Below are positions 741 to 8,100 of a stretch of DNA of 64,000 bases, piece after piece. The position numbers and the translations under genes are program-made. The first letter of the stretch is position 1. Each line of letters starts with the position of its first letter. This DNA comes from Geomonas silvestris (GTDB taxonomy: Bacteria; Desulfobacterota; Desulfuromonadia; Geobacterales; Geobacteraceae). The notes below the pieces were generated by a model, which made no database searches, had not been told where the DNA came from, and saw nothing but the letters and a program-made list of their open reading frames with translations. The DNA lies in the NCBI RefSeq assembly GCF_014193515.1, contig NZ_BLXX01000001.1, forward strand, positions 248,001 to 312,000, written 5' to 3'.

Positions 741-2369
741 CTAGGGACTCTCCAGCTTGAGCTTGCGGTACAGGGTCGCCAGGCTGATGCCGAGCTGCTC
801 CGCGGTGCGGGCCTTGTTGTCCCCCAGCGCATGCAGCACCGACTGGATGTACTCGCGCTCCACGGACTCCAAGGAGCGGATGCCAAAGGCGGTGGACGGC
901 CTGAAGGTGGCCTCGCGCACCTCGGGCGGCAGATCCTCGAGCTCTACCTGGTTGCCGCGGCACAAGACCACTGCGTACTCGATGGCGTTTTGCAACTCGC
1001 GGATGTTTCCGGGCCACAGGTAACCAAGGAGCTTGTCCGCCGCCTTGTGGGTGAAACCGGTGACCCTTTTGTGCATCCCCTTGGCAAGCGGCGCCAGGAT
1101 GAAGCGGGCCAGGGGGAGTATGTCCTCGGTGCGCTCGCGCAAGGGCGGAATCTTCAACTCGATCACCTTCAACCGGTAGTAGAGATCCTGCCGGAAGCTC
1201 CCCGAGGCTACCGCCTCGCTCAGCTTCCGGTTGGTCGCCGAGATGATCCGGACGTCGATCTTGCGCGAGGCGTTCTCCCCGATGCGCCGGATTTCCCTTT
1301 CCTGCAGGGTCCGCAGGAGCTTCACCTGCATGGCCGAAGAGACCTCGCCTACCTCGTCCAGGAAAAGGGTCCCGCCTGCCGCCGCCTCGAAGAGCCCCAC
1401 GCGATCCCGGTCGGCCCCGGTGAAGGCCCCTTTCACGTGACCGAAGAGCTCGCTGTCCAAGAGCGTCTCCGAAAGAGCGCCGCAGTTCACGGCCAGAAAC
1501 GGCTTCTTCGCCCGCCGCGATTGCCGGTGCACCTGCAGCGCCATCTGCTCCTTCCCCACCCCGCTCTCCCCGGTAATGAGCACCGAGGAATCGACCTCCG
1601 ATACCAGTGAGGCGAACTCGAGCACCTTCTGCATCGCCACACTTCTCGAGATGGAATAGTAGTGGCTCCCCTCGCATTCGTTGCGCAGGTAGCCCAGGTC
1701 GTGCCGGTAGTTCCTGAGACGCTTCTCGGTGCCCAGGAGCTTCCTGCGCAGGTCGTCGCAGATCGACTCCACCGGCTTCATCTGGTAGTAGGGGAGGTAC
1801 GGCTCCAGCTCCGGTCCCCACTGTTCCCGAAACTTCCCCCTGATCCTGCAGAACTCGTCCCCCTTCGCGATGCACTTGTCCTCGATGAAGTAGACCTCGC
1901 GCCCCTCAAGGTACGACACGTAGCCGCTGGCAAAGGCCGCGTGCCGCCAGCAGACCGCCTCTTTGGAGAGTCCCGAGAGCATCAGGTGCTGCTCCGCTTC
2001 GTAGGAGTCTTTCATGATGGTCTCGACCAGCGGCTCGTCGCCCAGGCCATCGGTGCGGCGCCTGCCGACGATCTCGCCGATGCCGTGCCAGGCGCTGAGC
2101 AAGGGCCCCAGTTCGCCCTGCTTGGCCTCAGCCCAGGCCTCCGGCATCTCTTTCTCGACAGTCTGGGCCAACCGCCAGCCGTGGGCGTACGAGGCCCTGG
2201 TGAAGATGATGCGAAAGGTCTCCGGCCCTAAGACCTCGAGGAGGTCCTTGCGCAACAGGCTCTGGGCCGCCGCGTCCATCAGATAGACCCGCTGGCCGAG
2301 GAACCGGATGACGCCCCCCTTGGGGTTGAAGGAGAGCAGCTCGCGGAAATCAAGATCGGACGTTTTCAT
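741..2369 (-). CDS. XylR/V4R-type sigma-54-dependent activator
   Basis: This 542-residue protein is an enhancer-binding activator with its own small-molecule sensor instead of a receiver domain. Residues about 15-120 resemble the XylR N-terminal effector domain and about 120-180 a V4R domain (KCIAKGDEFCRIRGK, two cysteines). The AAA+ domain carries Walker A GESGVGKE (267-274), the sigma-54 contact loop GAFTGA (314-319) and Walker B GGTLFLDEVGE. The end is a Fis-type helix-turn-helix (ARTAEQLGISLATLYRKLKL). Known relatives (XylR, DmpR, PoxR) bind aromatic effectors such as toluenes and phenols. The gene is divergent from the reductase-cytochrome-porin operon, so it probably controls that operon through the palindromes at 2410-2454. 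The effector is unknown. Confidence 0.93.
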   Translation of the reverse strand: MKTSDLDFRELLSFNPKGGVIRFLGQRVYLMDAAAQSLLRKDLLEVLGPETFRIIFTRASYAHGWRLAQTVEKEMPEAWAEAKQGELGPLLSAWHGIGEIVGRRRTDGLGDEPLVETIMKDSYEAEQHLMLSGLSKEAVCWRHAAFASGYVSYLEGREVYFIEDKCIAKGDEFCRIRGKFREQWGPELEPYLPYYQMKPVESICDDLRRKLLGTEKRLRNYRHDLGYLRNECEGSHYYSISRSVAMQKVLEFASLVSEVDSSVLITGESGVGKEQMALQVHRQSRRAKKPFLAVNCGALSETLLDSELFGHVKGAFTGADRDRVGLFEAAAGGTLFLDEVGEVSSAMQVKLLRTLQEREIRRIGENASRKIDVRIISATNRKLSEAVASGSFRQDLYYRLKVIELKIPPLRERTEDILPLARFILAPLAKGMHKRVTGFTHKAADKLLGYLWPGNIRELQNAIEYAVVLCRGNQVELEDLPPEVREATFRPSTAFGIRSLESVEREYIQSVLHALGDNKARTAEQLGISLATLYRKLKLESP

Positions 2370-2409: not shown

Positions 2410-2454
2410 CGAAAGGTTATAAGCCTTTCTTCTCAAATCTGAGAAAACCTTTCG
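2410..2454. promoter_or_regulatory. Nested palindromes, candidate upstream activating sequence
   Basis: CGAAAGGTT (2410-2418) is matched by AACCTTTCG (2446-2454), and inside it TTCTCA (2430-2435) by TGAGAA (2440-2445). Both pairs are perfect. They lie about 75-120 bp upstream of the sigma-54 promoter at 2527-2543, the expected distance for enhancer sites of a XylR-type activator. Binding by the divergent regulator is inferred. Confidence 0.6.
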
Positions 2455-2526
2455 CAAATTTAAGGCAACTCGTCAATAGGAAATTTGGAAACCACTGTAA
2501 AGACACGCACCTACAGAAACCCCGCA

Positions 2527-2543
2527 CTGGCACAGCTGCTGCT
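2527..2543 (+). promoter_or_regulatory. Sigma-54 (-24/-12) promoter of the reductase operon
   Basis: CTGGCACAGCTGCTGCT matches the sigma-54 consensus TGGCAC-N5-YTGCW, with GG (2529-2530) and GC (2541-2542) separated by exactly 10 bases. It reads toward the flavoprotein and implies a leader of roughly 230 bases. Nothing else is recognised between it and the start codon at 2781 apart from the Shine-Dalgarno GGGAGG. Confidence 0.75.
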
Positions 2544-2780: not shown

Positions 2781-4469
2781 ATGGATCAAGACACTCCGCA
2801 GCATGAAAAAGAGATGGACAGCTACACCCAGGAAGTTCTTGAGCGCGGGGTTTCGCGGCGCAGCTTCCTGTCGCGCACGGCGCTCGGCGCAGCCGGCGTC
2901 GGCCTGCTTGGTGTAGCCGGCTTAGGCACGAAGAAAGCCGAGGCGGCCCAGGGGACCGAGGCATTGGAGTTCGCCAAGAGCTCCGACGGGGGGGCGACGC
3001 TCTCCTTCCTGCCCAAGCCGAACCCGATCTCGGACAAGGAGATCAAAACCACCCTGACCTTCGACGTCATCGTGGTCGGCGCGGGGGCCTCGGGGGTCCC
3101 GGCGGCCCTCTCCGCCGCGGAGAACGGCGCCAAGGTGGCGGTGATCCAGAAGCACCCGATGCCCATCTCGCAGGGGAACACCGGTTCCGGCATCGACCTC
3201 GCCACCAGCGAGAAGGCCGGCATCGAGGCGCTGGTCGCAAAACTCATGGCAGACAACAACCACCGCTGCAACCCCGCGCTGTTGCGCCAGTGGGCCTACA
3301 ACTCGGGCGAGGCGGTGCGCTGGGTCATCAACCGGGCCAAACAGGCGGGCTCTCCGGTGGTCGACCAGGGAACCGGGCCGCAGCACGGTATCGCCAAGGT
3401 GAACGGCTACACCCTGAACTACGTCACCTCGTTCTTCGGGCCGAAGCCTTACACCGCCGGCGACGGGATGCGCCACCTCGCGAAGACCGCCGAGAAGGCC
3501 GGCGTCAAGTTCTTCTTCAACATGCCGGCCCAGCAGCTGGTGCAGAGCAAAAGCGGCGAAGTCGTCGGGGTCATCGCCAAGGGGAGGGACGGCAAGTACA
3601 CCAAGTTCCTCGCCAAGAAAGGGGTGATCCTGGCGACCGGGGACTACCAGAACAACGAGGCGATGTGCAACTACTTCATCCCCGACCTGAAGCACTTCGG
3701 GCGCAAGCAGATGGACCGGACCGGCGACGGCTTCGCGATGGCGTACTGGGCGGGGGGGGTGATCGAGCCCATCGGCCACACCAAGATGCTGCACGACTTC
3801 GACGCGGGCCCCGCCTCGATGTGCGACATGCCGTTTCTGGCCGTGAACCGCGAGGGGAAGCGTTTTGTCAATGAAACCGTCGACATGTCGCTTTTCAACA
3901 ACTACCTGCGCGACGCCAAAAACGCCGGCCACTACAGCCAGATCTTCGACGCGAACTACATGACCCAGGCCGCCAAGTGGCCGGGCAAGCTGGTCCCGCC
4001 CGAAGGGCTGAAAAACTACATGCCCGACGATCCGAGCCCCAAGAAGGGGGTCTTCGATTCCCTCATCAACACCCACGTGGCAGACACCCTCGAAGAACTC
4101 GCCAGGAAACTGGAGATCGATCCCAAGAACTTCGTGGCCAGCGTGAAGCGCTACAACGAGGTGGTCGCCTCGGGCAAGGACAGCGACTTCGGCAAGCCCG
4201 CCGACCGCCTGATCCCGGTCCTTCAGGCACCGTTTTACGGCATCCACCGCAGGGTGCGCGTCTCGACCATCTGCTCCGGGATCCTCGTGAACGAAAACCA
4301 CCAGGCACTCGATGCCGACGGCAAGCCGATCAAGGGGCTGTACGCCATCGGCAACCTGGGCGGCGGCTTTTACGGCGGTGTCGACTATCCGCTCACCGTG
4401 TTCGGACTGTCGCTTGGGCGCTGCTACACCTTCGGCTACCTGACGGGAAAACACGTGGCGAAGCTGTAA
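2781..4469 (+). CDS. Tat-exported FAD-dependent periplasmic reductase (flavocytochrome c / fumarate reductase-type flavoprotein)
   Basis: 562 residues. A twin-arginine signal (SRRSFLS, residues 25-31, then a hydrophobic stretch ending near KKAEA) sends the folded flavoprotein to the periplasm. FDVIVVGAGASG opens the FAD-binding fold at about residue 93. VNREGKRFVNE (about 354-364) and the C-terminal GLYAIGNLGGGFYGG are hallmarks of the fumarate reductase flavoprotein superfamily. The NExxTR segment that holds the catalytic arginine in Shewanella fumarate reductase reads NETVDM here, so fumarate may not be the substrate. It has no haem motifs, and the tetraheme cytochrome is a separate gene 70 bp downstream, as in the methacrylate reductase/cytochrome pair known from Geobacter and Anaeromyxobacter. 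Probable role: reduction of an enoate or similar acceptor in anaerobic respiration. Confidence 0.88.
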   Translation: MDQDTPQHEKEMDSYTQEVLERGVSRRSFLSRTALGAAGVGLLGVAGLGTKKAEAAQGTEALEFAKSSDGGATLSFLPKPNPISDKEIKTTLTFDVIVVGAGASGVPAALSAAENGAKVAVIQKHPMPISQGNTGSGIDLATSEKAGIEALVAKLMADNNHRCNPALLRQWAYNSGEAVRWVINRAKQAGSPVVDQGTGPQHGIAKVNGYTLNYVTSFFGPKPYTAGDGMRHLAKTAEKAGVKFFFNMPAQQLVQSKSGEVVGVIAKGRDGKYTKFLAKKGVILATGDYQNNEAMCNYFIPDLKHFGRKQMDRTGDGFAMAYWAGGVIEPIGHTKMLHDFDAGPASMCDMPFLAVNREGKRFVNETVDMSLFNNYLRDAKNAGHYSQIFDANYMTQAAKWPGKLVPPEGLKNYMPDDPSPKKGVFDSLINTHVADTLEELARKLEIDPKNFVASVKRYNEVVASGKDSDFGKPADRLIPVLQAPFYGIHRRVRVSTICSGILVNENHQALDADGKPIKGLYAIGNLGGGFYGGVDYPLTVFGLSLGRCYTFGYLTGKHVAKL

Positions 4470-4539: not shown

Positions 4540-4935
4540 ATGAAGAACAACATCAAACAAAGACGGGGCTTCAGGTTTGCCCCTGCACTGGTTGCCCTGG
4601 TGATCGGTATCTGTGCTGGTGGGGTCTATGCGGCCCACGCGGCAGACGCAAAAGGCGGGGATCTGGGCAAGCTGCACGCAAGCGCCGGCGTTGCCTGCGC
4701 CATGTGCCACGTCGACGCGAAACACCCCGCGCCGGTACCGATGGAAAAATGCCTGGGCTGTCACGGCGATACCCGCAAGCTGGCCGAGAAGACGGCCAAC
4801 GTCAAGCCGCGCAACCCGCACGAAAACAGGCACTACGGCACCGAAGCCGACTGCAACATCTGCCACCACCAGCACAAGAAATCGGAGAATTTCTGTCTCC
4901 CGTGCCACCAGCCGTTCAACTTCGACGTGCCCTAG
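4540..4935 (+). CDS. Periplasmic tetraheme cytochrome c (electron donor to the flavoprotein)
   Basis: 131 residues with an N-terminal signal peptide (hydrophobic PALVALVIGICAGGVYA, cleaved near AHA-AD). Four CxxCH haem sites are visible: CAMCH, CLGCH, CNICH and CLPCH, with further histidines for bis-His ligation (HASAG, HVDAKHP, HENRHYG, HHQH). Size and haem spacing resemble the N-terminal tetraheme domain of Shewanella flavocytochrome c. The preceding gene encodes the matching flavoprotein domain, so the two proteins together correspond to a split flavocytochrome c. A Shine-Dalgarno GGGAGGAG precedes the ATG. It should pass electrons from the inner-membrane quinol oxidising system to the flavoprotein. 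Confidence 0.93.
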   Translation: MKNNIKQRRGFRFAPALVALVIGICAGGVYAAHAADAKGGDLGKLHASAGVACAMCHVDAKHPAPVPMEKCLGCHGDTRKLAEKTANVKPRNPHENRHYGTEADCNICHHQHKKSENFCLPCHQPFNFDVP

Positions 4936-5023: not shown

Positions 5024-6235
5024 ATGAAAAAGAGATTTTTAAGCGCGTCGGTTATCGCAGCGGCCCTCGCCATGTCCACTCCGGCCCTGGCCCTGGAGCT
5101 CACCCCCTACGGCGCGGTCCGGGTCGGCACCTGGTACACCGCGAGCACCTACTACGCCTATCCGGCCGCCAGCGCCACGAGCCCTGCTCGCGGGACCGCG
5201 CAGCACGACGGCGACTTCACCCTCGACCTGCAGGGCGACAGCCTGGTCGGCTTCCGCGCCAAGGAAGGGGACTTCTCCGGCGTCGCGGAGATCGGGGCTT
5301 ACAACCCGAAAAACCGCAGCGCGGGACTGGAGCTGCGCCTTTTGTTCGGCGAATGGGACTTCGGTGCCGGCAAGCTGCGCGTCGGCTACGCCCCGAGCCC
5401 GTACGTCTTCCGCTCGGAGCAGACCTTCGACAGCGACGGCGGCTTCAACGGCTACGGCTCGCTGTGGGACGGGCGCTACGCACAGATCAAGGTCACTGCC
5501 AGTAACGGCCTCTACCTCACCCTGATGAAACAGGGGACCGGCAAGGCGGCAGGCGGCGGCAACGACCTCATCGTGGTTCCCGGCAGCACCGACAGCGCGG
5601 TCAACGGCAACAACTGGAACGGGACCGCCTTCACCAACACGGCGACCCAGTACGCGGCAGCCAACACGAACTACGACACCTTCGCACCGAAGACCATCGT
5701 CGGCTACGAGGGAAAATCGGGGATCGTGAGCTACGGCGGCGGTGTCGCGGGGAACTACTTCAAGGTGACCTCCTCCGCCAACGACGCCGTCGCCTACCAG
5801 GACGAGATCTACTCGTACCTCGCCTTCGCGCACTGCAAGATCGATCTGGCCCCGGTGGAGATCAAGCTCAACGCCTACAGCGGGCAGAACATCGGCAACC
5901 TGATGAGCAACCCCGGTGCGGCCAACGGCTCCCTGTACTTCAGGAACACCGCAGGCCAGACCGCCAACGCCTATACCTACGGCGGCTGGGCCCAGGTCGG
6001 CTACCTGATGAACGAGAAGGTAAAGATGTTCGCCGGTGCCTCCTACGAGTCCAACGACACCCGTCTCACCGCAGCCGACGAGCGCATGGCGGCTTTCGCG
6101 AACGTCCAGTTCGCGGTGACCAAGAACCTGAGGATCGTTCCGGAGTTCTCCTTCCTGAACGACATGACCAACCGCCTGGGCCAGCAGGAGCCGCGCATCT
6201 ATGCCGCCGGCGCCAAGTGGGAGATGACCTTCTAA
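5024..6235 (+). CDS. Outer-membrane porin of the reductase operon
   Basis: 403 residues with a clear signal peptide (MKKRFLSASVIAAALAMSTP, cleavage after ALA). The mature chain is rich in alternating aromatic and polar residues, contains repeated beta-strand-like segments and ends in WEMTF, the terminal phenylalanine expected for BAM-assembled barrels. It lies 88 bp after the cytochrome gene on the same strand and is followed by a strong terminator, so it is the last gene of the operon. It probably lets the reductase substrate into the periplasm; substrate selectivity cannot be read from the sequence. Confidence 0.8.
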   Translation: MKKRFLSASVIAAALAMSTPALALELTPYGAVRVGTWYTASTYYAYPAASATSPARGTAQHDGDFTLDLQGDSLVGFRAKEGDFSGVAEIGAYNPKNRSAGLELRLLFGEWDFGAGKLRVGYAPSPYVFRSEQTFDSDGGFNGYGSLWDGRYAQIKVTASNGLYLTLMKQGTGKAAGGGNDLIVVPGSTDSAVNGNNWNGTAFTNTATQYAAANTNYDTFAPKTIVGYEGKSGIVSYGGGVAGNYFKVTSSANDAVAYQDEIYSYLAFAHCKIDLAPVEIKLNAYSGQNIGNLMSNPGAANGSLYFRNTAGQTANAYTYGGWAQVGYLMNEKVKMFAGASYESNDTRLTAADERMAAFANVQFAVTKNLRIVPEFSFLNDMTNRLGQQEPRIYAAGAKWEMTF

Positions 6236-6384: not shown

Positions 6385-8100
6385 ATGCCGCGCACCACAC
6401 TGAGGTCACTTTTCGCACTGCTGTTGGTCATGATGACGGGGGTTTCGGTCCAGGCGGGAAACATCAGCGCCGAGATCGCCAGCGACTTCGCACCGCGCTC
6501 CGGGTACCTGGTACGGGCGGCGGGGGATGGCTACCTGATCGACCTCGACGCGCGGCAGCAGGTCGCGGTCGGCGACCTCTTCGCCGTGGTAGCGCCGGGC
6601 GAGCCGATCGTGCACCCGGTGACCCAGGCGCTCGTCGGCAGCGAGGACACGGTACAAGGGCTTTTGCAGGTGACCCGCGTGAAGGCGGGCTACTCCGAGT
6701 GCCGCGCCGTGGGGACCGCGGCGGCCCTGAAAAGGGGCGCTCCCATCCGACGCTTCCAGAACATCGACGCCAGGTTCTGGGACTACACCGGTTACGGCGA
6801 GAGCCTCTTCCGCGAGCTGCAGGCCCAGGTGCCGCTGCTGCAGTGGCAGGACTACCGCGCCACCCAGGAGCGCCGCCCTCCCCTGCCGGCTGTCGCGGCG
6901 AGCGAGCAGCCCTCGCTCTATTTCATCTTAACGGGGTCGGGACTCGAGGTCCGGGCCCCCGATTTTTCCCTCATGCACCGCTACCCCTTGGCTCTTCGCG
7001 GTGACGGGGAGCCTATGATGCGTCCTGCCACGGCTGCACTACCTGCCACGGTGGCAGCGGCGGGCCTGCCGGCCCCCTCCCCTGCCGGTTCCGCAGCCGC
7101 GCAGCGCATCTGGACCGGCCCGATACTCAAGGGAACTCCGGTCGGTCTCGAGATCGGGGATTTCGACGGGGACGGGAAGCAGGAGATTGCCGTGGCCTTC
7201 GGGGACCGCGTTGAGATCTTCCGCCTGGCGGGCGAAGAGCTCCGACAGCTGGCCGTGGTGCCGTTCGAGCGCTCGCTCAGGGCGTACCACCTGGACGGGG
7301 CCGATCTCGAGAAGAGCGGCAGGATGCAGCTCTACCTCTCCGCCGTCACCGGCTCCGGCAACCCGTCGGGGCTCAGCATCGCCTGGCGGGACGGTGCCTA
7401 CCGCATCACCAGGGCCAAGATCCCCTGGCACCTGCGCCGCATTACGCTGCCGGGCGAGGGGAACGTTCTGGCCGCTCAGAAGATGGGGATCCAGGGACGG
7501 GAGTACGCCGGCCCGGTGTTCCGGGTGATTCTCGCGGAAGACCGGCTTACCGAAGGCGACCCGATCCCGGGGCCGGCGCAGGCGAACCTTTACGACTTCA
7601 CCCCGGTAACCTCGAGAGGCGGGATCTCCTTCGCGCGGTTGGTTGCCGACGGTTATCTTAAGATCGTGACGCCGGATGGGCGGGAGCTCGGGGAGACGGT
7701 GGACAAAACGGGAGGGAGCGAATCTCACCTGGAAATGGACGAAGAGGCGCAAACCGGCGGGGAGACCCGGGTCGTCTACCTACCGGCCCGGTTCGAAGCG
7801 ACGGAGCGGGGGGAGGTCCTGGTGCCGGCCAACAGCGCCGCGAGCCTGCTCTCCCGGGTGAGGAGCTTTTCCAAGTCCCAGCTGCAGGCGCTGGTCCTAA
7901 GCGGCGGCACCGTACAGGAGGCCTGGCACACCGAGCCCGAGAAAAACTACCTGGCCGACTTCCGGGTGGCGGAGGCGGCCAACGACGGAAAGCGGCGCCT
8001 GGTCACGGTGGTCGCGTTTCCCGAGGGGGGGCCCTTCTCCTTCTCGCGCAAGGCGGCGCTGCAGATCTACTCGCTGCCCGAACCGCGCGGCGCGCAGTGA
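6385..8100 (+). CDS. Secreted VCBS/FG-GAP repeat-like protein
   Basis: 571 residues starting with a signal peptide (SLFALLLVMMTGVSVQA). Residues about 30-75 (SGYLVRAAGDGYLIDLDARQ) look like a small beta-barrel module. The segment LEIGDFDGDGKQEIAVAFG at about residue 255 is a classic FG-GAP/VCBS calcium-binding propeller motif (DxDxDGxxE). The rest is predicted beta-rich with no enzyme motif that I recognise. Shine-Dalgarno GGAGAG precedes the ATG. It follows the porin operon terminator and has its own terminator, so it is probably monocistronic. Function unknown; an envelope or extracellular propeller-like protein is the best guess. Confidence 0.8.
   Translation: MPRTTLRSLFALLLVMMTGVSVQAGNISAEIASDFAPRSGYLVRAAGDGYLIDLDARQQVAVGDLFAVVAPGEPIVHPVTQALVGSEDTVQGLLQVTRVKAGYSECRAVGTAAALKRGAPIRRFQNIDARFWDYTGYGESLFRELQAQVPLLQWQDYRATQERRPPLPAVAASEQPSLYFILTGSGLEVRAPDFSLMHRYPLALRGDGEPMMRPATAALPATVAAAGLPAPSPAGSAAAQRIWTGPILKGTPVGLEIGDFDGDGKQEIAVAFGDRVEIFRLAGEELRQLAVVPFERSLRAYHLDGADLEKSGRMQLYLSAVTGSGNPSGLSIAWRDGAYRITRAKIPWHLRRITLPGEGNVLAAQKMGIQGREYAGPVFRVILAEDRLTEGDPIPGPAQANLYDFTPVTSRGGISFARLVADGYLKIVTPDGRELGETVDKTGGSESHLEMDEEAQTGGETRVVYLPARFEATERGEVLVPANSAASLLSRVRSFSKSQLQALVLSGGTVQEAWHTEPEKNYLADFRVAEAANDGKRRLVTVVAFPEGGPFSFSRKAALQIYSLPEPRGAQ

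Follow-up and report, generated by a model that had tools for sequence, protein, structure and literature searches.

The window, the whole stretch of 64,000 nucleotides of Geomonas silvestris DNA that was analysed, contains a 411-bp intergenic gap that separates a regulator gene (741-2369, minus strand) from a Tat-signal flavoprotein gene (2781-4469, plus strand). The gap would be a sigma-54 control region between the regulator gene and a reductase operon. The features of the locus are as follows.

741..2369, minus strand: regulator, 542 aa (Pfam and NCBIfam scans, PDB sequence matches)
2410..2418, no strand: left outer arm of an inverted repeat, CGAAAGGTT, judged not to be a functional unit
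2430..2445, no strand: candidate enhancer box 1, TTCTCAAATCTGAGAA, centre about 116 bp before the predicted start
2446..2454, no strand: right outer arm, AACCTTTCG, seen in the sequence to overlap the first bases of box 2
2451..2465, no strand: candidate enhancer box 2, TTCGCAAATTTAAGG, repeating box 1 in degenerate form 21 bp downstream
2471..2476, minus strand: TTGACG just beyond box 2, possible -35 of a regulator promoter, a lead only
2528..2543, plus strand: predicted sigma-54 (-24/-12) promoter, TGGCACAGCTGCTGCT, strict score 6/7, predicted start about 2554
2781..4469, plus strand: Tat-signal FAD reductase of the flavocytochrome c / fumarate reductase group, 562 aa (FAD_binding_2)
4540..4935, plus strand: tetraheme cytochrome c, 131 aa (Cytochrom_c3_2; four CxxCH counted)
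5024..6235, plus strand: probable outer-membrane porin, 403 aa (AlphaFold model, BLAST relatives)
6385..8100, plus strand: FG-GAP-repeat protein (PF13517 at 26.1 bits, just below the cut-off of 26.9)

The regulator and the genes it faces

The probable products of the operon are a Tat-exported flavoprotein reductase, a tetraheme cytochrome and, with the porin itself only a probable assignment, an outer-membrane porin. The reductase has a Tat-like RRSFL motif. Its PDB sequence matches are flavocytochrome c and urocanate reductase, the TIGR01813 and vinyl phenol reductase models match it below cut-off in the NCBIfam scan, and residues 376-432 stayed unaligned against fumarate reductase. The porin has no family match in the Pfam or NCBIfam scans. 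Its AlphaFold model, of low confidence (mean pLDDT 40), has a signal-like helix followed by mostly beta strands. Geomonas limicola has a BLAST relative of it, as do 9 of the 29 further loci examined, one of which (L133) is without the reductase. From gene order and strand, the FG-GAP gene is possibly the last of the operon.

Between the promoter and the first gene (2559-2720) lies a G+C-rich leader of about 130 bp that is missing in G. limicola; this extra segment is single copy in the genome. The sole RNA element match in the leader, to SAM-III, scored 16.5 bits (E 0.9), where the gathering score is 45, and was set down to chance. A GTATAC hexamer, at 2388-2393 here, is kept in all twelve Geomonas-type intergenic regions (L002-L012 and this one), on a side relative to the boxes that differs among them.

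The regulator consists of a XylR_N sensor, a V4R domain, an AAA+ domain and a Fis-type HTH, and GAFTGA can be read in its sequence. The V4R domain scored 30.5 bits (cut-off 31) in one scan and 34.9, above the cut-off, in another. PDB sequence matches are to DmpR/CapR (6iy8), PoxR and MopR, and by its sequence the protein is classed as a sigma-54 activator of the XylR/DmpR kind. Its sensor domain is 95% identical to that of G. limicola Red745. The only other V4R match in the genome (G000:C1:820611-820787) is within a 193-aa open frame, possibly for a V4R protein that stands on its own.

Searching 277 genomes of the class with a sensor-domain profile gave 39 matches below E 1e-70, and the match after these stood at 1.4e-39. 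Four loci, from a betaproteobacterial MAG, a Myxococcales MAG, Desulfosediminicola and Desulfopila, were added to make a clade of 43; they were drawn from 21, the rest being nine duplicates of counted genomes and eight (L074-L081, 25-36% identity) that lay outside the clade and were dropped. One genome of the same order (G252) has eight copies of the regulator subfamily; one of these, L133, can be read for only 398 aa and is possibly defective.

The zinc site of the window's regulator is intact, with three Cys and one Glu (C140, E163, C166 and C174, aligned with MopR). These ligands, for which a zinc role in the sensor domain is described in PMC7264223, are kept in 43 of the 43 clade loci. The same source places His100 and Trp128 of DmpR on either side of the phenol hydroxyl. 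Both residues are replaced in the window's regulator, by Ser92 and Met119. Across the clade the His is kept in 39 of the 43 loci and the Trp in 38, both being lost from the window (L001), L002, L062 and L112, and the Trp alone from L121; L002, L062 and L112 are the three nearest branch members of the window's regulator. Because the pocket His and Trp are replaced, the ligand here is probably not a simple phenol. Perhaps, as a guess, it is the unsaturated acid reduced by the periplasmic reductase of the operon. A strict link between ligand and reductase substrate is disfavoured because related enzymes (L072, L127, L134 and L135) go with regulators that have the His and Trp.

The predicted sigma-54 promoter

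At 2527-2543, CTGGCACAGCTGCTGCT has GG at 2529-2530, then ten bases, then GC at 2541-2542. It has one mismatch to TGGCACNNNNNTTGCW, and its surroundings agree with TGGCAC-N5-TTGCW. Of 2000 shuffled versions of the 411-bp gap, 8 had an equally good site. In a scan of the 64 kb, no other match among those listed (200 of 231) has as few as one mismatch, and looser matches are not enriched (231 found against 252 expected). The published consensus for RpoN promoters of Geobacter sulfurreducens is TTGGCACGGTTTTTGCT (PMC2725144), for comparison with CTGGCACAGCTGCTGCT here; flavocytochrome and XylR are absent from the main text of that paper. The genome has rpoN (PF04552 at G000:C16).

The strong evidence for the predicted site is comparative. 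A strict site, with a score of at least 6/7 and GG and GC required, is present within 400 nt upstream of the regulator gene, pointing away from it, at 35 of the 43 loci; shuffles of the same 43 regions had a mean of 0.52 and a maximum of 3 such sites, and the opposite strand had 0. The site in G. limicola is TGGCACAGCTGGTGCT. Among the eight loci without a strict site, L073, L121 and L122 score 5 and L134 and L135 have GT for GC at -12. Nothing convincing as a sigma-54 site was found at L113, L114 and L118, where no reductase or cytochrome match lies alongside. The original prediction had placed a sigma-54 promoter here facing the operon; the letters are where it put them, and the relatives bear it out.

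Paired boxes upstream of the promoter

For the comparison of upstream regions, the 38 loci with a site score of at least 5 were reduced by twelve near-duplicates to 26 representatives. In a motif-free self-comparison of these regions over lags of 10-50, lag 21 reached z 7.3 and lag 20 reached z 6.2, followed by lag 39 at z 2.8. A repeat run gave z 6.8 and 5.4, with the next at 3.1, and with the window and G. limicola left out lags 21 and 20 still gave z 6.2 and 5.5. An unconstrained search, made with no symmetric model, showed that at many loci one copy, or each of the two, is palindromic. On this comparison the conserved unit is a tandem of two palindromic boxes 20-21 bp apart, which is two turns of DNA.

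A pair model, symmetric by construction and with its lags restricted to 20-22 after the free-lag result was seen, gives the box as nTATCAAATTGATAn. Its best solution was reached from one chosen seed and two of the twelve random seeds, the ten other random seeds ending lower-scoring. Pairs score at least 15 in 35 of 41 cases, those below being the window (L001), L113, L120, L121, L122 and L123. No convincing box pair is present at L120-L122, though L120 has a strict promoter. Among the 23 representatives that score, box 2 is centred 60-63 bp before the GG of the -24 element in 8 and 71-73 bp before it in 14, with none at 64-70 bp and one at 167 bp (L062). Linkers of equal length (39 pairs) have a median identity of 0.35, against 0.26 for shuffled linkers, and 18% of the pairs exceed 0.5. 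Since the linkers have diverged, the spacing seems to be kept by selection, with shared descent adding to the clustering, and the spacing classes may be partly inherited. The 10-bp step in the distances from box to promoter fits the helix-face requirement described for looping by sigma-54 activators (PMC3900584).

In the window the pair found by the model is TTCTCAAATCTGAGA (2430) and TTCGCAAATTTAAGG (2451), at lag 21, with box 2 centred 71 bp upstream of the GG in the -24 element. Counted from the predicted start, the box centres are at about -116 and -96, where palindromic UASs of XylR/DmpR-type control regions lie some 100-200 bp upstream, and their two-turn spacing is unlike that of the paralogues. 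The pair is weak, its 11.7 bits falling short of the threshold of 15 applied in the distance count, though 71 is a distance that fits. Box 1 has its best self-match at lag 21 in both the window and G. limicola (11/16 each), and box 2 closely matches a box of L112, TTCGCAAAATTAAAG. With the window and G. limicola held out of the model, the window pair ranks 1, with 14 of 1000 shuffles as good, and so does the G. limicola pair, with 2 of 1000 as good; holding out L112 and L062 as well raises these counts to 49 and 4 of 1000. Taken singly, each of the two boxes is outscored by another stretch of the region, TTGTAATAACGAAAG (2401-2415).

The exact box occurs once in the genome. The next best matches, C8:4053 (one mismatch) and C12:67603 (two mismatches), have no good sigma-54 site within 200 bp (best 3/7), and no wider regulon was found through box matches of two mismatches or fewer in the genome. 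The former (G000:C8:4053-4068, TTCCCAAATTTGAGAA) is between a peptidyl-prolyl isomerase-like gene, identified by eye, and a long open frame. Most branches other than that of G. limicola have TATCA-type half-sites. A recognition-helix code, pairing Ser in GISLATLYRK with TCTCA/TCGCA half-sites and Gly with TATCA, stands as no more than a weak lead: the window branch and L124 agree with it, L132 and L123 (Ser) do not, and a TCTCA is present once at L119 (Gly).

As a control, the search was repeated identically on paralogues in genomes of this family, whose sensor identity is 26-31%. The 22 loci scanned had 17 sigma-54 sites in 16 of them; the lag test used 16 sites in 15 loci, the near-duplicate L025 being dropped and L108, without a site, left out. 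The domain order is identical in all seven paralogues scanned with Pfam, and the NCBIfam MobR model scores 553-607 bits for all ten paralogues scanned, against 352 for the window's regulator. Their 16 sites have lags of 42 (z 7.1) and 41 (z 4.3), with nothing at 20 and 21 (z -1.2 and 1.1). A recognisable pair, for example TTCATCAAATGATGAA, can be seen by eye in about 12 of the 16, at 132-169 bp from the promoter, and four are without one. The half-site core, ATCAA facing TTGAT, is common to the window's subfamily and the paralogues. As the paralogues show 41-42 and not 20-21, the two-turn layout marks the window's subfamily and not V4R regulators generally.

The original prediction had instead drawn a nested palindromic enhancer here, and both of its inverted repeats are perfect and in place: CGAAAGGTT at 2410-2418 with AACCTTTCG at 2446-2454, and TTCTCA at 2430-2435 with TGAGAA at 2440-2445. 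Neither, taken alone, exceeds chance. When the 411-bp intergenic region was dinucleotide-shuffled 1000 times, a perfect repeat with 9-bp arms and a gap of up to 40 arose 64 times, and a palindrome with 6-bp arms and a gap of up to 6 arose 498 times. In G. limicola, 6 of the 9 outer pairs are kept and 3 lost, none compensated; the inner arms are identical, and the 16-mer there is a perfect palindrome, TTCTCAAATTTGAGAA. The inner palindrome of that prediction is, as judged from these alignments, box 1, and the left outer arm is without support; box 2 is absent from that prediction. With three of its nine pairs lost in G. limicola and a 6% chance rate in shuffles, the outer palindrome was rejected as a component of the enhancer. 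The check set by the original prediction itself, conservation next to orthologous regulators, was borne out for the promoter, and for the enhancer as an architecture, and failed for the outer arms; the inner palindrome is kept in G. limicola, and the letters of the box are closely kept only there. The further claim, that the nested repeats give the binding site of the V4R regulator directly, holds for the place, a likely site being present about 70-100 bp upstream of the promoter, and not for the nested repeats as its form.

Alternatives, a possible exchange of modules and related systems

It is quite unlikely that the repeats at 2410-2454 form one symmetrical enhancer whose outer arms are contacted like the inner ones. 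Their perfection in the window speaks for such a site; the 6/9 outer pairing in G. limicola, uncompensated while the inner palindrome improves there, the tandem pattern that other loci conserve and the chance rate of 64 in 1000 all speak against it. Still less likely is that the conserved boxes are an operator through which the regulator represses itself, with control of the operon secondary or exerted by another protein. The boxes could cover a regulator promoter, since TTGACA-like hexamers adjoin box 2: within 10 offsets beyond it such hexamers average 4.64/6 over 25 representatives, compared with 3.42 (maximum 3.84) for shuffled linkers. However, the boxes hold a helical distance to the sigma-54 site that an operator alone would not need, and -10 partners are poor in the window, where no convincing -10 for a regulator promoter was found. 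The hexamer, TGTCAA-like past box 2 and thus TTGACA on the regulator strand, is present at many loci, and may be a regulator -35 or a third half-site, in keeping with the minor peak at lag 39.

An accidental sigma-54 match, with the operon read from a housekeeping promoter, is the least probable of these readings and may be regarded as extremely unlikely. A -35/-10 promoter has been proposed for the related methacrylate operon of G. sulfurreducens AM-1 (PMC4427408), and loose sigma-54 matches are not enriched in the window. Against this, shuffles average 0.5 sites where 35 of the 43 loci have one, and a generic scan of 2340-2800 found no sigma-70 promoter.

The preferred reading is therefore a two-box enhancer for a XylR/DmpR-like regulator that drives the sigma-54 promoter of the reductase operon, to which a probability of about 0.85 is given. 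In this class of activators, the protein on the boxes, once it has bound ligand, brings its AAA+ domains together and opens sigma-54 polymerase by DNA looping (PMC7264223, PMC3040749). The promoter, the box pair with its spacing rules, the domains of the regulator and its divergent linkage to reductase operons are there in the sequences, and binding, activation and the start site are predicted from them. Two regulator dimers would sit on the boxes at 2430-2445 (clear) and 2451-2465 (degenerate), along the same side of the helix with two turns between them. Ligand bound by the sensor domain would lead the AAA+ ring to assemble on the boxes, and a short loop of about 70 bp would then allow it to open the polymerase held at 2528-2543, with transcription running from about 2554 through the reductase, cytochrome and porin genes. 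Repression of the regulator's own gene from box 2 is a guess.

The neighbouring genes were examined beside 31 loci, 29 of them in addition to the window and G. limicola, and at L009 over 1500 nt only. The regulator faces a flavoprotein and a small multiheme cytochrome related to those of the window in 21 of these; L121 has the cytochrome alone beside the regulator, and the remaining nine have other genes. At L115, L117, L119 and L133, in genomes from the level of the order, the same promoter layout is seen with the reductase replaced by a small CDGSH-like protein together with molybdenum-cofactor-like genes (MobB- and MoaA-like, by eye). The regulator subfamily may control other genes too.

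The window-like enzymes, with 76-96% identity (G. limicola, L072, L127, L134 and L135), form one clade. The regulators of these loci belong to several branches, and a single clade for them is rejected (AU p 2.6e-5). In other bacteria, related enzymes that are 76-86% identical have different regulators and different boxes, as at L127, where the enzyme is 86% identical to that of the window and the boxes are CGATCAAATTGATCT and CTATCATAGTGATCG. Box type thus appears to follow the regulator, because similar enzymes with different regulators have different boxes, and this would be expected if the boxes bind the regulator.

A bolder reading is offered tentatively, at clearly less than even odds. 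It joins two proposals: a separate V4R subfamily with its own geometry, in which two-turn boxes and one short phased loop take the place of the distant four-turn boxes of the MobR type, and a branch, that of the window, with a changed pocket and changed box letters, a non-phenolic ligand (probably an unsaturated acid electron acceptor) and a regulator and enhancer that were exchanged together upstream of an older reductase operon. The locus would then exemplify the swapping of a regulator with its enhancer, as one module, upstream of a conserved enzyme. What began as a guess about a palindrome becomes a rule predicting binding sites for the whole regulator subfamily. It also provides a natural comparison of how enhancer-site spacing relates to the assembly of sigma-54 activators (two turns here, four in the paralogues of related genomes), and a pointer to the regulation of periplasmic flavoprotein/cytochrome reductases in Geobacter-like bacteria.

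A literature search covering few subscription journals found no earlier report of the regulator, its UAS spacing or the operon. The control region is of an ordinary kind; the two-turn layout as the mark of a subfamily was not found described. The reductase and cytochrome resemble the Mrd/Mcc methacrylate system of G. sulfurreducens AM-1, in which a heme-free Tat FAD flavoprotein is encoded next to a separate c-type cytochrome gene (PMC4427408). They differ in that the cytochrome here has 131 aa and Mcc has 231, and in that the promoter suggested for the AM-1 genes is of the -35/-10 type, with no V4R regulator named in the available sections of that paper. Solved members of the flavocytochrome c group (urocanate and fumarate reductases) have only a distant sequence likeness to this reductase.

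The regulator shares its XylR_N, V4R, AAA+ and Fis HTH domains and its zinc ligands with the activators XylR, DmpR, MopR, PoxR and MobR. Systems of this type also have a palindromic UAS and a -24/-12 promoter, and the divergent gene order is that of mphR (PMC7264223, PMC3063778, PMC3040749). Unlike DmpR, the window branch is without the His and Trp that hold the phenol hydroxyl. The UAS spacing is about 30 bp for Pu, Po and HbpR. In the DmpR/MobR-type paralogues the boxes are 41-42 bp apart and 132-169 bp from the promoter, whereas in the subfamily of the window they have a spacing of 20-21 bp and, for the most part, a distance of 60-73 bp to the -24 element.
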